NCBI RefSeq assembly: GCF_040954645.1 | Contig: NC_092808.1 | Span: 113,934,049-113,998,048 of the forward strand | Direction: 5' to 3' | Source of the DNA: Diabrotica undecimpunctata | Taxonomy: Eukaryota; Arthropoda; Insecta; Coleoptera; Chrysomelidae | Length of the DNA: 64,000 nucleotides | Shown: positions 4,743 through 64,000 of the stretch, piece by piece | How the letters are laid out: each line of letters opens with the position of its first letter | How positions within the stretch are numbered: the first letter of the stretch is position 1 | Position numbers and translations under genes: made by a program | Notes under the pieces: generated by a model | Told to the model about the DNA's origin: nothing | Databases searched by the model: none | Seen by the model: the letters and a program-made list of their open reading frames with translations, nothing else

Positions 4743-4745
<3 letters not shown>

Positions 4746-4976
4746 GTAACAAGAAGATGCATCTACGATTAGAGTTGAAGTAAAAAGATACTTCTACCGT
4801 CGTTAAAAGTCTCTAGTAAGAGGCTTTGAATTTGCGGTTCACCTAATTTACTATCAGAGAGAGGTCTCTGGACTTCTCAAATACTAGACTGCATTTCATT
4901 TCAGTTGAACTTCCACAAGTGCTCCTGATGATGAGTTGAATAACTCGAAACACGTGTAGAGCAATGGTGGAGTTAC

Positions 4977-4980
<4 letters not shown>
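4743..4980 (+). mobile_element. Penelope-like terminal region (pLTR-like), between TA tracts
   Basis: A unique 238-bp block lies between two long TA microsatellites and ends in a hammerhead-like fold followed by ggagttactttc. The string gaaacacgtgtaga is typical of the terminal repeats of arthropod Penelope-like elements as I know them. A PLE endonuclease remnant lies 620 bp downstream in the opposite orientation. Assignment rests on the ribozyme-like fold and this proximity; the block has no coding content. Confidence 0.6.
4911..4972 (+). ncRNA. Hammerhead ribozyme-like fold (type I) in PLE terminus
   Basis: The core box CTGATGA is at 4925-4931 and GAAA at 4947-4950. Stem II is GAGTT/AACTC (4933-4937 with 4942-4946, loop gaat). 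A minimal stem III forms from 4950-4951 with 4956-4957 around loop acgt; position 17 is A4958, so the predicted cut is 4958/4959. Inner stem I pairs TGCTC (4920-4924) with GAGCA (4959-4963). After an internal loop (aag/atg), ttccac pairs with gtggag. This is the usual natural type-I layout. One deviation is an extra T (4932) between core and stem II, so activity is uncertain. Confidence 0.7.
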
Positions 4981-5592: not shown

Positions 5593-6258
5593 TTAATGTT
5601 GTTTTCTTTTTTTATTGAACTCTTTAAGTAAAAACAGTAAATGTGGGCAAATCTCACTGATGTCAGATTTCTTGTTTATGGTTTTCTCCGTTTCAGAGAT
5701 AAAATCCATCTCAAAAAACAATCTTTTAAAATAATTGTTCTCAATTGCTTCTATGTAATTCATTATGTGATTGTTTTGGTTAACGTGCATGGATAAACTA
5801 TACCTATCTGGATATTTCTTCGAATCACTCTTGTGGCAGGTGATACGGTCCTTTAGTCGCCTTGAAGAATGGCCAATGTATTGTAAATTACAGTTTGTAC
5901 AAGGAATACTGTAGACCATGCTAGACATATTTATATTTTAATTAATGTTTTATCTTTGAGTTTAAAGAAGACTAAATTTATCGTGAAAAACTGTTTTATT
6001 AGCAAATCTAAAGTCAGCAACAAAATTGAATACTCATGTCAGTTTAGGAGTGATATTTTGTATATATGGCAGTATGTAAAATTTTTTTTGAGTAGGTGTG
6101 ATAACTGTAGTGTCCCTTTCTTAATTCACAGCAGCAGTGTTAATAGAGGAGTGATTTTGTGTACTGTTATATGTTTCAGACGGTGTGCAAAAACAAAATT
6201 TTCTTTAAAAGAGCTGGTGGATAATTGTTGTCTAGGAACAGTTGGTAAGGGATTCTAA
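5593..6258 (-). pseudogene. Penelope-like element: GIY-YIG endonuclease remnant
   Basis: On the minus strand, 5928-5593 reads VYSIPCTNCNLQYIGHSSRR, the GIY-YIG signature with the CxxC that PLE endonucleases place beside it. It is followed by LSMHVNQNNHIMNYIEA and YFKRLFFEMDFI, which match the conserved His and Glu blocks of this nuclease. Upstream (6258-5940) the end of the RT thumb and linker is recognisable (YPPALLKKILF, LVFFKLKDKT) but carries stops and at least one frameshift. The RT palm is absent, so the copy is 5'-truncated. In intact elements this enzyme nicks target DNA for retroposition; here it is dead. Confidence 0.85.
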
Positions 6259-22500: not shown

Positions 22501-22590
22501 ACGAACATTTATTAAGTTACAGCTGAGTACAAATAAAAAGCTTGGTTCTACTTAAATAATTTTTTTCGCTGAATTTAAAACTGAAATAAT
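19560..22590. other. No gene seen
   Basis: Three kilobases of AT-rich sequence with only short chance frames. No RNA gene or complete repeat element was recognised by eye. Confidence 0.45.
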
Positions 22591-22591
22591 T

Positions 22592-22733
22592 ATTACTAAT
22601 ATTAAATAGCATTAGCATAGCATAGCAATAACAATAATTAAATTTCATCCTAGCAGGATGAAATTGATTACTAATATTAAATAGCATTAGCATAGCATAG
22701 CAATAACAATAATTAAATTTCATCCTAGCAGGA
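22592..22733. repeat. 75-bp-period exact tandem duplication
   Basis: A 67-bp unit starting attactaatattaaatagca and ending catcctagcagga occurs twice (22592-22658 and 22667-22733), separated by tgaaattg. The end of unit one with the spacer forms a hairpin, aatttcatcc/ggatgaaatt. No mismatch was seen between units. Confidence 0.95.
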
Positions 22734-22749
22734 ATTATCAGAGCATGGT

Positions 22750-22850
22750 AAGGAAGCCCTAAACGTGAAAACAAATATTTTCCATTAGGAAAGCCACAAT
22801 AGAATGTCTTCGATTTGGACGCTATAGCGACATCTGATAGTAAATTTCGA
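22750..22850. repeat. Fragment of the repeat family that carries the hammerhead at 53330
   Basis: aacgtgaaaa, the tract ttcca/ttagga, then cacaatagaatgtcttcg and tttggacgctatagcgac align block by block with 53399-53480 (aacgtgaaaa..., aacaataaaatggcttcg, aaatggacgcaatagtgac). The ribozyme portion is absent here. Similarity was judged by eye over about 100 bp. Confidence 0.6.
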
Positions 22851-23099
22851 AAGAAGAAATCCGAAGATTTTTATTAACGGAACCAAAATTCAGATTTTTG
22901 CTTTAATATGTGCCTTCTAGAAATTTGCAAGGCAAAACAAACAATGCTAAAATATGTAATTAATTATTATTGTTTGAGAAAGCATATTGGATGTAAGAAA
23001 AAAGTCTTCATTGACTTCATCTAGCAATTGTTTATATCAGCTGAATTTAAAATCGGTAAAAACTGATAAAAATTGTGATACTGTTTATTTATTATATTA

Positions 23100-31309: not shown

Positions 31310-31963
31310 TCCATTAATCAGTTCTTCATAGAATTATTTTGTTTTGTTTTCAATCCATTGTTTAATTTCATATTTATATCTATGTTTTTTATAATTTTTA
31401 ATTTGTTTTAAATTCTATGGTAGACAATTGTATAATTTGGGCCCTATGTTACCAACATGTCTCTAGAGTATGGATTTATTACATTTCAATAAAATTACAT
31501 TATTTCTTGAATATCTAGTTTGATGGGCATGATTGTTAAAGTTTAATATTATTTTTTTTCATGTATATATATAAATGTTTTGTAACAGAATAATTTTCGT
31601 ACAGTTAAAAATTGACTTGCATTATATAACAGCTTGCTAGAATATCTTAAATTTTCCCATAAATGATTCGAATTAGCCACTTCTGAATAATGTTTATAGA
31701 ATGCAAGTAATTATTCCGTATTCCACCCCATCCTAAAAGGCCATAGGTAAGTTGAGATTGTATAAGTTCATAATAAAGAATTCGTAAATGAGTAATCCGT
31801 AAAATAGTTTCGAAACACAATTCATTTCATTTCATTTCATTTTAATTCGTAAATGAGTCATTCCTAAAAATTGCTTTAAAAATTTGAAATTTGATAGTAG
31901 CCCTGTTAATTTAACTACTATATTATTTGCTTGAGAATTCCATCGTAAATGTTTATCAATTAT
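31310..31963 (-). pseudogene. LINE C-terminal fragment (CR1/jockey-like)
   Basis: Minus strand: KHLRWNSQANNIVVKLTGLL, SNFKFLKQFLGMTHLR, then after a 50-bp insert TYGLLGWGGIRNNYLHSINI, IQKWLIRII, and finally LYNCLP with KNYKKHRYKYEIKQWIENKT and a stop. This is the RT C-terminal and tail region of a CR1/jockey-like LINE. Multiple frame changes. Not previously open long enough in any one frame to stand out. Confidence 0.65.
31794..31843. mobile_element. 50-bp micro-insertion with 15-bp TSD
   Basis: aattcgtaaatgagt flanks it at 31779-31793 and 31844-31858. The insert starts aatccgtaaaatagtttcga and ends in an (atttc)n tail. Its body matches sequence at 53481-53503 and, inverted, 53735-53757, so it is a truncated retroposed end of the hammerhead-bearing repeat family. 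Confidence 0.8.
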
Positions 31964-53000: not shown

Positions 53001-53281
53001 CGCTGCTCCGCTTATTGGACGTTTGTGCGCCATTGCTGAGCTTCATCAGGATGTTGGTAACTTAAGTTCCTCTTTATCACTGAAAGTATACCGTCGAACA
53101 AGATCCACTTCTATAGTTTTCGGACGTATTTTCATTAATGTCGTATTATATAATAATATTTATAGATCCTGTCATGTTGTCGTCAGTTTCCATCGTTTAC
53201 TTTGTTTGGTTATTAGATGCATTCACTGTAGTTAATATGTTTTGGGAAGTTTCTGGGTGTGCATTAGAAGTAATTAAGTTA
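50003..53281. other. No supported gene
   Basis: Over 3 kb of AT-rich sequence. The 112-codon frame at 52897-53235 and smaller ones show no recognisable domain. No RNA gene was seen. Confidence 0.4.
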
Positions 53282-53757
53282 GAATGAAATGAAAAAGACA
53301 GTCAAGATTTGATTTCACGTACAAAGCGTCTATGTATCTGTTTATACGTATTTCGCTTTAATAAAGCTCATCAGAACAATTATTCATAGGCGTTCTCAAC
53401 GTGAAAAATAAATCTTTCCTGTCTTTAAGAAGCAACAATAAAATGGCTTCGAAATGGACGCAATAGTGACATCTGATATTAAATCCGTAAAATAGTTTCG
53501 AAATCAAATACGTGAAGTACGTGAAATCAAATCTTGACTGTCTTTTTCATTTTATTCGGATCTACTCTGTATGAGTACAAGAAACCAATTCGCTAATGAT
53601 TTCTGCTTAGTTGAGGAGACATGTCGTGGAATGCAAATTTTAGATTCCCCATGTCTCTATTAACATCTTTATCAACGTCTGCTTTGCCTTGCGATTTTTA
53701 TAAGGCTCAGATTAAGGCAGAAATCTGAATTGTGTTTCGAAACTATTTTACGGATTT
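53282..53757 (-). mobile_element. Repeat with nested inverted arms and a hammerhead ribozyme
   Basis: Outer arms of 41 bp (53282-53322 and 53517-53557; gacagtcaagatttgatttc and its inverse) match with one mismatch and enclose the ribozyme. A second arm pair of 23 bp (53481-53503 and 53735-53757; aaatccgtaaaatagtttcg and its inverse) overlaps the right side. Related fragments occur at 22750-22850 and 31794-31843, the latter with a TSD, so the family is mobile by retroposition. A PLE terminal region or a ribozyme-bearing SINE or retrozyme are the candidate identities. Confidence 0.6.
53330..53389 (-). ncRNA. Hammerhead ribozyme, type I, canonical core
   Basis: On the minus strand, CTGATGA (53374-53368) is followed by a perfect stem II GCTTT/AAAGC with loop ATT (53367-53355) and GAAA (53354-53351). 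A minimal stem III (AT/AT around loop ACGT) leads to U16.1 and A17 (53343), giving a predicted cut between 53343 and 53342. Inner stem I is TGTT/AACA plus a wobble, then an internal loop (AATAAT/GATA) and an outer stem CTATG/CATAG. All invariant core positions are present. In known systems such ribozymes process PLE, retrozyme or SINE RNA. Activity is inferred from structure. Confidence 0.88.
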
Positions 53758-54200
53758 AATTAAGTTAGCTTTGTCAGAGCGTTCTGCTTCCTGGTAACCA
53801 ATAATCTTACATTTTGTACATGTATGTTCTTCTGTAAAGATATAATCGGTAAGTGGTATTATCGTGACAGGTGATTAAATAATCGGAAATAGACATATTT
53901 TCTAAAGATGTGATAAAATTTGCCTTCTAATACTCAAGACACGGCTGTATTGGCTTTCAGACATTCCTATTTTAGGAAAGTCATTTTTGAGAGGACGTTT
54001 ATACCCATCTTACGTAGTTATTGGTCAGTTATTGTGTTTGGGACAGTACAGCAAGCATTTGATATTACAAGTCTCTGAAATGGAGTGATTATGACAATAT
54101 CCAACATATCCTATAGTTGGCGATTCTGAAAGCGAAGGATACGTTACGTGGATTAACTAGTAAATCGACGGCTATGATGTACTCATAAACTTTAGTTTAT

Positions 54201-57690: not shown

Positions 57691-58158
57691 TGAACAAATC
57701 CCCTTCGTTGGCTCAGTGAAGATGTTCGTTCAGTTGTAATGGAAACACCAAATAATAGTAGCAGAGTTTATTGTAGAGACGTACACTATGGGTGTAGACC
57801 CGGGATTACTTTGAGTAGAGACTGATGAAGTTGATCGTTGACGACTATCAAGTTCGTTGAGTGAATATTGATTAAATGCCTCTCTAGGCAAGAGATCTTA
57901 GTTTTATATAAACTTTAATTGGGTCAATATTTTCGCGGACCTCGCGTGACATGTGTATTTAATTTATGTAAATAGTTTAACTTTGTCAGCACTTTTGACT
58001 GATGTCCAAATTATATTATTGATAATTGACCAAATGTGTATGTAACCTAATTAACTACGTGTGTGTATTTAATAACAAATAGATTCATTCGGTCTACTGG
58101 GTGATAAAATTATACTGTCCAATTTCGGATATGAATTCTAAAGATTTGATATTGGACA
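57691..58158 (-). repeat. 3' LTR
   Basis: 468 bp, tgaacaaatcc ... atattggaca in plus orientation. On the coding (minus) strand it is the downstream LTR. No obvious purine-rich tract precedes it, suggesting the deletion or divergence removed the usual polypurine signal. Confidence 0.95.
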
Positions 58159-58742: not shown

Positions 58743-59210
58743 TGAACAAATCCCCTTCGTTGGCTCAGTGAAGATGTTCGTTCAGTTGTAATGGAAACAC
58801 CAAATAATAGTAGCAGAGTTTATTGTAGAGACGTACACTATGGGTGTAGACCCGGGATTACTTTGAGTAGAGACTGATGAAGTTGATCGTTGACGACTAT
58901 CAAGTTCGTTGAGTGAATATTGATTGAATGCCTCTCTAGGCAAGAGATCTTAGTTTTATATAAACTTTAATTGGGTCAATATTTTCGCGGACCTCGCGTG
59001 ACATGTGTATTTAATTTATGTAAATAGTTTAACTTTGTCAGCACTTTTGACTGATGTCCAAATTATATTATTGATAATTGACCAAATGTGTATGTAACCT
59101 AATTAACTACGTGTGTGTATTTAATAACAAATAGATTCATTCGGTCTACTGGGTGATAAAATTATACTGTCCAATTTCGAATATGAATTCTAAAGATTTG
59201 ATATTGGACA
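58743..59210 (-). repeat. 5' LTR
   Basis: 468 bp, same ends as its partner; on the minus strand it starts TGTCCAATATC and ends GATTTGTTCA, followed at once by the primer binding site. Confidence 0.95.
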
Positions 59211-63475: not shown

Positions 63476-63617
63476 TTTGCAAATAAATTCAGCAGTGATT
63501 TTTGGAAAAGACTTTTGAACTTTTGAAAAGTATTGTTCGTCGGGAACATCCGCGTAGTTCGGTAGTGCCCTTTGTACGAAAGAACATTTAAAGAAGTACG
63601 TGTGTGCCTAAAGAAAG

Positions 63618-64000
63618 ATGCTGCTAGTACAACTCTCAGTAAAACAGTTGCGAGAGCAACTAGAAGAACGCGATGAAGATTGCAGCGGGTCCAAGAAGAT
63701 CCTCCAAGAACGACTGAAGAATGTTCTTAACAAGAATGGAGATGATCCAGAGACATTCCATTTTCAGTCAGCAAAAGAAGCAGTTTTAATGAAGATAGAA
63801 GAAACTTCTAAAAAAACTGATGATAAATTCGAGACTGTTTCCAAAAGATTCGATGAAACGTCTCAAATGATAGAAGAATCTTCTAAAAAAAATGATGATA
63901 AATTCGAGACTGTTTCCAAAAGATTCGATGAAACGTCTCAAATGATAGAAGAATCTTCTAAAAAAAATGATGATAAATTCGAGACTGTTTCCAAAAGATT
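63618..64000 (+). CDS. gag-like protein of gypsy-type element, partial
   Basis: ATG at 63618, open to the window end (127 codons seen). Residues about 4-35 (LSVKQLREQLEERDED, then SGSKKILQERL) form a SAP-like helix-turn-helix, a DNA-binding start seen in some insect gypsy gags. From residue 58 come 25-26 residue charged repeats (MIEESSKKNDDKFETVSKRF, DETSQ), predicted coiled coil, encoded by a 75-bp tandem unit. No stop or frameshift was seen, so this copy may be intact. It lies about 160 bp after the PBS, where gag belongs. Confidence 0.75.
   Translation, partial: MLLVQLSVKQLREQLEERDEDCSGSKKILQERLKNVLNKNGDDPETFHFQSAKEAVLMKIEETSKKTDDKFETVSKRFDETSQMIEESSKKNDDKFETVSKRFDETSQMIEESSKKNDDKFETVSKR
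63789..64000 (+). repeat. 75-bp coding tandem repeats
   Basis: Units start at 63789 (78 bp, one codon longer), 63867 and 63942, the last running off the window. Units two and three look identical (ATGATAGAAGAATCTTCT and onward). In frame within gag. Confidence 0.95.

Follow-up and report, generated by a model that had tools for sequence, protein, structure and literature searches.

The closest described relatives of the element reported here are the metazoan non-LTR retrozymes (Cervera and de la Pena 2020, PMC7229834). In the parts of that work on which we draw, these elements carry type I hammerheads, consist of 150-450 bp repeats with a GC content below 50%, and are flanked by duplications of more than 4 bp; insects are listed among their carriers. 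For Nematostella, duplications of 15 bp are given in the section used of PMC4918200. Highly self-paired, stably folded RNA has also been published for retrozymes, at least in the accounts excerpted here. For the return of animal retrozymes to the genome, LINEs or Penelope elements have been proposed as movers, with Penelope as a strong candidate; according to the Discussion of PMC7229834, the case for Penelope was built on hammerheads common to both, on tandem copies and on co-occurrence.

Penelope-like elements themselves carry hammerheads in their pseudo-LTRs (PMC11167929, PMC3846280). A typical insertion, as set out in the relevant passages of PMC3846280, combines direct pseudo-LTRs with an adjacent inverted one and shows palindromes at the inverted junction. 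Several of the copies described there have duplications of 8-10 bp, others have none, and one Penelope moved an unrelated host gene in trans. The purified Penelope enzyme cuts AT-rich DNA with a preference for ATT targets and extends both strands from positions internal to the RNA; these are two adjacent, closely spaced sites, the same for both strands (PMC11167929, in part). In the same purified system, cleavage by the hammerhead depended on the addition of protein, and hammerhead activity was not needed for insertion (PMC11167929, in part).

Here we describe an insertion of 474 bp, located at 53 kb in a 64-kb stretch of Diabrotica undecimpunctata DNA (hereafter the window; Table 1). We take it for a further animal retrozyme, a known kind of element, inserted in a layout like that of Penelope. 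With a probability of roughly 0.7, we read it as a single inserted copy of a metazoan non-LTR retrozyme, non-coding and non-autonomous, with about 399 nt per unit, brought about by the mechanism proposed below. For the family, the name retrozyme is more fitting than full Penelope element, SINE or satellite.

Table 1. Features of the window, with coordinates counted from its first base.
Feature	Position	Strand	Basis and remarks
Second hammerhead, read as Penelope-element type, two-part stem I	4913..4970	+	Extra U after CTGATGA; pattern scans
Fragment of a GIY-YIG endonuclease, presumably from a Penelope-like element	5593..5937	-	PF01541, E 2.5e-6
Diverged family copy, Y'-B'-X' then hammerhead remnant	22710..22962	-	218 bases aligned, of which 177 identical; 39 gap positions
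15-bp target-site duplication of the mini-copy	31779..31793		Partner 31844-31858; the window has no other 15-bp repeat with this spacing
50-bp mini-copy, terminus AATCCGTAAAATAG... then (ATTTC)n end	31794..31843	+	31/31 identical to 53726-53756
Target-site duplication, left copy, TAATTAAGTTAG	53271..53282		Identical to 53757-53768
Complete insertion, 474 bp; minus strand carries the ribozyme sense	53283..53756	-	Duplication bounds; interlocked inverted repeats inside
Ribozyme-bearing segment, B'-X'-hammerhead-A' (40 nt)	53283..53503	-	Inverted-repeat search, joined-unit reconstruction
Long imperfect hairpin extending stem I, ribozyme at tip	53294..53426	-	Arms 53382-53426 / 53294-53337, 75.6% over 45 nt
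Type I hammerhead ribozyme (putative)	53330..53389	-	Sequence and null models; predicted cleavage 53343/53342
13-nt filler where the segments meet, composed of pieces like the beginning of A'	53504..53516		By eye
Inverted segment, A' (40 nt)-Z'-Y'-B' (22 nt inside the element)	53517..53756	+	Same RNA sense as ribozyme; arms common with the other segment
Target-site duplication, right copy, TAATTAAGTTAG	53757..53768		Identical to left copy

The hammerhead motif at 53 kb is real: core, stems and the A at the cleavage position were all confirmed on the minus strand at the coordinates given for them in an earlier note on this DNA. Read directly on that strand, CTGATGA occupies 53374-53368 and is followed by a stem II of 5 bp (GCTTT/AAAGC, 53367-53363 / 53359-53355) with the loop ATT and by GAAA at 53354-53351. 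Stem III consists of two pairs (A-U and U-A) around a self-complementary ACGT loop at 53349-53346. Stem I is in two parts, TGTT/AACA and CTATG/CATAG (53389-53385 / 53334-53330), separated by an internal loop (AATAAT/GATA). The conserved core CUGAUGA...GAAA...UH is thus complete and stem I is open, as in type I. Position 53344 corresponds to U16.1 and 53343 to A17, which places the predicted cut between 53343 and 53342. We regard the motif as a putative self-cleaving ribozyme, its cut being predicted from sequence. The same note had called it a canonical type I hammerhead. The intact core bears this out, but the word is too strong for a stem III of two pairs around a palindromic loop and for a fold that costs energy. 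According to the part of a review used here (PMC7761336), a weak stem III keeps many type I motifs from cleaving as monomers, but not as dimers.

Motifs of this type are rare by chance. Both descriptors used for this estimate were composed after the motifs had been seen, and the null was sequence generated from a second-order Markov model of the window. The first descriptor, with an exact core, at least 4 bp in stem II, at least 4 in stem I and at least 2 in stem III, produced 6 matches in 400 Mb of such sequence, which corresponds to 0.0019 expected on both strands of the window; stricter settings gave 0. The second, which permits stem III to be short and a bulge to be present, matched 12 times in 500 Mb; in 3 of the 12, both stem I and stem II had 5 bp or more. 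The expectation for the two strands of the window is thus 0.003, or 0.0008 with the longer stems, against two hammerheads found, and the range of about 0.0008-0.003 is the chance expectation for a hammerhead motif of this type. The same pair, at 53389-53330 (minus) and 4913-4970 (plus), was listed when one core mismatch was allowed. By itself, the bare pattern CTGANGA...GAAA is not significant in the window (7 matches, 4.55 expected).

A covariance search, one of the checks proposed in the earlier note, went against the motif: at Rfam gathering thresholds there was no match in the whole window, and both hammerheads were passed over. The gathering threshold is a curation cut-off and does not define the ribozyme biochemically. 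Under relaxed settings, the best match of the 53-kb hammerhead was RF00008, the type III model, with 18.4 bits (gathering 48.5) and an E-value of 0.19, reported as the best of its clan only. Relaxed scans of small stretches returned sub-threshold matches only, unrelated families among them. As patterns, both hammerheads and the element terminus had no match each in viral contigs, and the second hammerhead had none in prokaryote genomes; neither is a collection of animal genomes, so these counts say little.

The perfect 12-bp duplication at the outer edges defines the element as a single insertion of 474 bp. Of 63481 positions scanned, only this one shows an exact direct repeat of 12 bp with such a spacing. 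Inside, two pairs of inverted repeats interlock: one of 41 nt with 98% identity (53282-53322 / 53517-53557, 1 base of it in the duplication) and one of 26 nt with 100% identity (53478-53503 / 53735-53760, 4 bases in the duplication). When the minus segment is read in ribozyme sense from 53503 to 53283 and the plus segment from 53517 to 53756, the two can be joined at their shared B' into a unit of 399 nt. In this unit, A' occurs after the hammerhead in one segment and before Z' in the other, with 39 of 40 bases identical. This points to a template that was circular, multimeric or longer than one unit. Neither an intact tandem nor a direct dimer of the 399-nt unit occurs in the window; the order of the unit is that of the joined inverted segments.

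The inferred unit of 399 nt with its type I hammerhead lies within the 150-450 nt of retrozymes, and the duplications of 12 and 15 bp exceed 4 bp. The longest stop-to-stop frame inside the element has 62 codons (53361-53546, minus), which leaves no room for the Penelope-type reverse transcriptase and GIY-YIG open reading frame. The layout, with inverted and direct repeats and short duplications, is the one described for Penelope in the relevant part of PMC3846280.

Including the 53-kb element, the window holds three copies or pieces of the family. The earlier note had supposed that the ribozyme belongs to a mobile family, and the target-site duplication together with these two further copies bears this out. 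In the diverged copy at 22 kb, the alignment is collinear across the inferred join of the 399-nt unit, with A' and Z' outside its extent, which supports a native order, as judged from sequence, of Y'-B'-X'-hammerhead without inversion. The hammerhead remnant of this copy was located by eye and by alignment. Its core is not intact, and neither the scan with one core mismatch nor the relaxed Rfam scan listed a hammerhead there. The intact ribozyme thus occurs in one family copy of the window, that at 53 kb. Family copies devoid of core conservation had been named in the earlier note as evidence against it; the damaged core at 22 kb goes part of the way, and a single old copy decides little. By eye, inspection of the AT-rich flanks of the 22-kb copy gave no convincing target-site duplication. 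A 75-bp tandem duplication (22588-22733, 2 copies, 98% matches) adjoins its X' and seems by eye to double part of the hammerhead remnant. The mini-copy at 31.8 kb has its terminal base in common with the 53-kb element.

Folding predictions support, without proving, a self-paired RNA. The joined 399-nt unit has a predicted energy of -105 kcal/mol (z -4.47), and none of 100 shuffles was as stable; as a circle it reaches z -4.94 and the antisense circle z -5.34. By itself, the inverted segment has z -4.85 and the ribozyme segment z -2.51 (1/60). Among 60 random 399-nt pieces of the window, with 12 shuffles each, 5 were at z -4.98 or below, so that the stability of the unit is not unique. A' pairs with the end of X', and this extends stem I and places the ribozyme at the tip of the long hairpin. 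In a thermodynamic model that leaves tertiary contacts out, the hammerhead fold lies 5.5 kcal/mol above the free ensemble within the 221-nt segment, with penalties of 6.9 in the joined unit and 13.9 in a bare 67-nt piece, and the ribozyme fold differs from the predicted minimum. Bare hammerhead pieces of 64 and 78 nt gave predicted folds without a hammerhead (z -1.35 and -0.41).

Set beside the published systems, the element resembles the metazoan retrozymes, as far as the sections drawn on describe them, in its type I hammerhead, its non-coding unit of about 400 nt and its AT-richness, and equally in a duplication of more than 4 bp, a self-paired RNA, here only predicted, and Penelope-like sequence in the same genome (PMC7229834). 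It differs from them in having two inverted segments where they have direct tandem repeats, and its minimal stem III is nearer to the Penelope type (PMC7229834, in part). Its cleavage and circular RNA are putative. With the Penelope-like elements, again as described in parts of PMC11167929 and PMC3846280, it shares direct and inverted segments, short duplications, an AT-rich target, ends that fit internal starts of reverse transcription, and the minimal stem III. In contrast to them, its 474 bp are without a reverse transcriptase or endonuclease open reading frame. Its core also lacks the extra U of the second hammerhead of the window. Another insect repeat with a hammerhead is pDo500 of Dolichopoda cave crickets, reportedly a satellite DNA arranged in tandem, not dispersed. 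The plant LTR retrozymes, in the portions used of PMC4918200 and PMC7761336, are likewise hammerhead-delimited non-coding units thought to move as circular RNA, but they have type III hammerheads, LTR-like repeats, a primer-binding site, a polypurine tract and 4-bp duplications. Among the matches listed in searches of titles and abstract openings of the hammerhead and retrozyme literature, with partial coverage of subscription papers, none describes for a retrozyme a layout like that of the 53-kb element.

We propose the following mechanism for the retrozyme insertion. The type I hammerhead would cut tandem or read-through transcripts into units of about 399 nt, which would be closed into circles or left multimeric. 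A reverse transcriptase acting in trans would copy this RNA at a nicked AT-rich site. Synthesis would begin on each of the two target strands, at favoured positions inside the RNA (...TTTCATT and ...TTACGGATT). The resulting cDNAs would join head to head in the middle of the element, with template-jump filler at the junction, and repair would produce the duplications of 12-15 bp. The likeliest supplier of the enzyme would be a Penelope-like element. In the purified Penelope system, hammerhead mutants were without effect on insertion, and the RNA used by the enzyme was mainly uncut, as stated in the part used of PMC11167929, and so the ribozyme step may be dispensable for copying.

As inferred from the layout, Penelope-type machinery is a plausible mover of the retrozyme. 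We hold it to be a possibility only, and a tentative one, that retrozyme circles are copied by a Penelope-type reverse transcriptase off both target strands from fixed internal RNA starts. Against this step, about 200 nt of the 399-nt unit separate the two inferred start sites, while those of the purified enzyme are closely spaced (PMC11167929, in part). The rotifer study, in the passages drawn on, also counts against our reading of the insertion as a whole: it ascribes inverted Penelope copies to self-priming, not to priming from two strands, and reports no cross-mobilisation among its Penelope families (PMC3846280). If the step were true, the head-to-head layout and the shared exact terminus would be a direct genomic footprint linking retrozyme mobility to Penelope elements. 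The short duplication, together with two inverted segments that resemble cDNAs and a terminus that recurs exactly in another insertion, makes a concrete footprint that can be counted genome-wide, and the layout at 53 kb makes the proposal of Penelope mobility testable.

Rather unlikely, in our judgement, is that the element is SINE-like, carries a hammerhead and was moved by a LINE that leaves a short-repeat 3' tail, its inverted half being the product of ordinary twin priming. Duplications of 12 and 15 bp are usual for LINEs. The 3' end of the mini-copy is (ATTTC)n, and a reverse-transcriptase domain (RVT_1) was found in 2 of the 8 open reading frames tested, which we take for those of LINEs. 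Because the duplications fit and such frames are present, LINE-type twin priming stays a rival. Twin-priming breakpoints are expected to be variable, however, and the insertions at 53 and 31.8 kb end at the same base, with 31/31 identical. At the 53-kb locus, a 4-nt match (ATTA) that fits twin priming was seen by eye between the target end and the RNA beside the second start site; by eye again, it is missing at 31.8 kb. ARAGORN detected no tRNA gene within the window, although a diverged tRNA-like head could escape it, and A' at both sides of the unit is left unexplained by twin priming itself.

The exact common terminus would also be expected if the 474-bp structure were itself mobile, an older inverted retrozyme turned master, from which the 31.8-kb copy arose by descent and internal deletion. 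The similar (ATTTC)-like other end, and the presence of two insertions with different duplications, would agree with this. We nevertheless give it an even smaller chance: the 22-kb copy is uninverted, which argues against the inverted form as ancestral, and the segments at 53 kb share their ends at 98-100%, as fresh copies of one template would. That the hammerhead is incidental to a miniature inverted-repeat DNA transposon (MITE), or to another palindromic DNA element, is very improbable. The two strong inverted repeats, of 41 and 26 nt, would suit such an element, but they interlock instead of forming matching ends, and the termini AATCCGTAAA and TTTCATT are not complementary. A DNA transposon, considered for the sake of these repeats, was rejected on its unlike ends and on the unequal duplications (12 vs 15 bp).

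Besides the retrozyme insertion, the left part of the window contains the second hammerhead. Its stem III region has the palindromic CACGTG, and a relaxed Rfam scan matched it to RF00163 with 14 bits, against a gathering threshold of 34 (E 1.9), in another core register. It lies within a short element at about 4743-4980, between (TA)n runs, the ends of which look inverted by eye (GAAGTAAC / GTTACTTTC). The nearby GIY-YIG fragment is 74% identical to a Diabrotica virgifera protein (one match among 2 candidates) and is on the opposite strand (minus) to this hammerhead (plus). The window also has transposase open reading frames, presumably of kinds common in insects. When the region upstream of the second hammerhead was compared with the 22-kb copy, the score was reached by 7 of 1000 shuffles and by 3 of 581 other window pieces; for the 53-kb copy, the figures were 174/1000 and 60/575. 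The likeness is weak and inconsistent between copies, and we do not claim a common origin of the retrozyme and the second-hammerhead element.

Two further repeats were noted near the right end of the window. Identical 300-bp direct repeats at 57691-57990 and 58743-59042 lie 1052 bp apart, start to start, and a minus-strand frame (58781-58293) begins inside the second of them. They could be the terminal repeats of a young short element. On the plus strand, an open frame at 63612-63998 runs off the window and contains a 75-bp tandem repeat (63794-64000, 2.8 copies, 98% matches).
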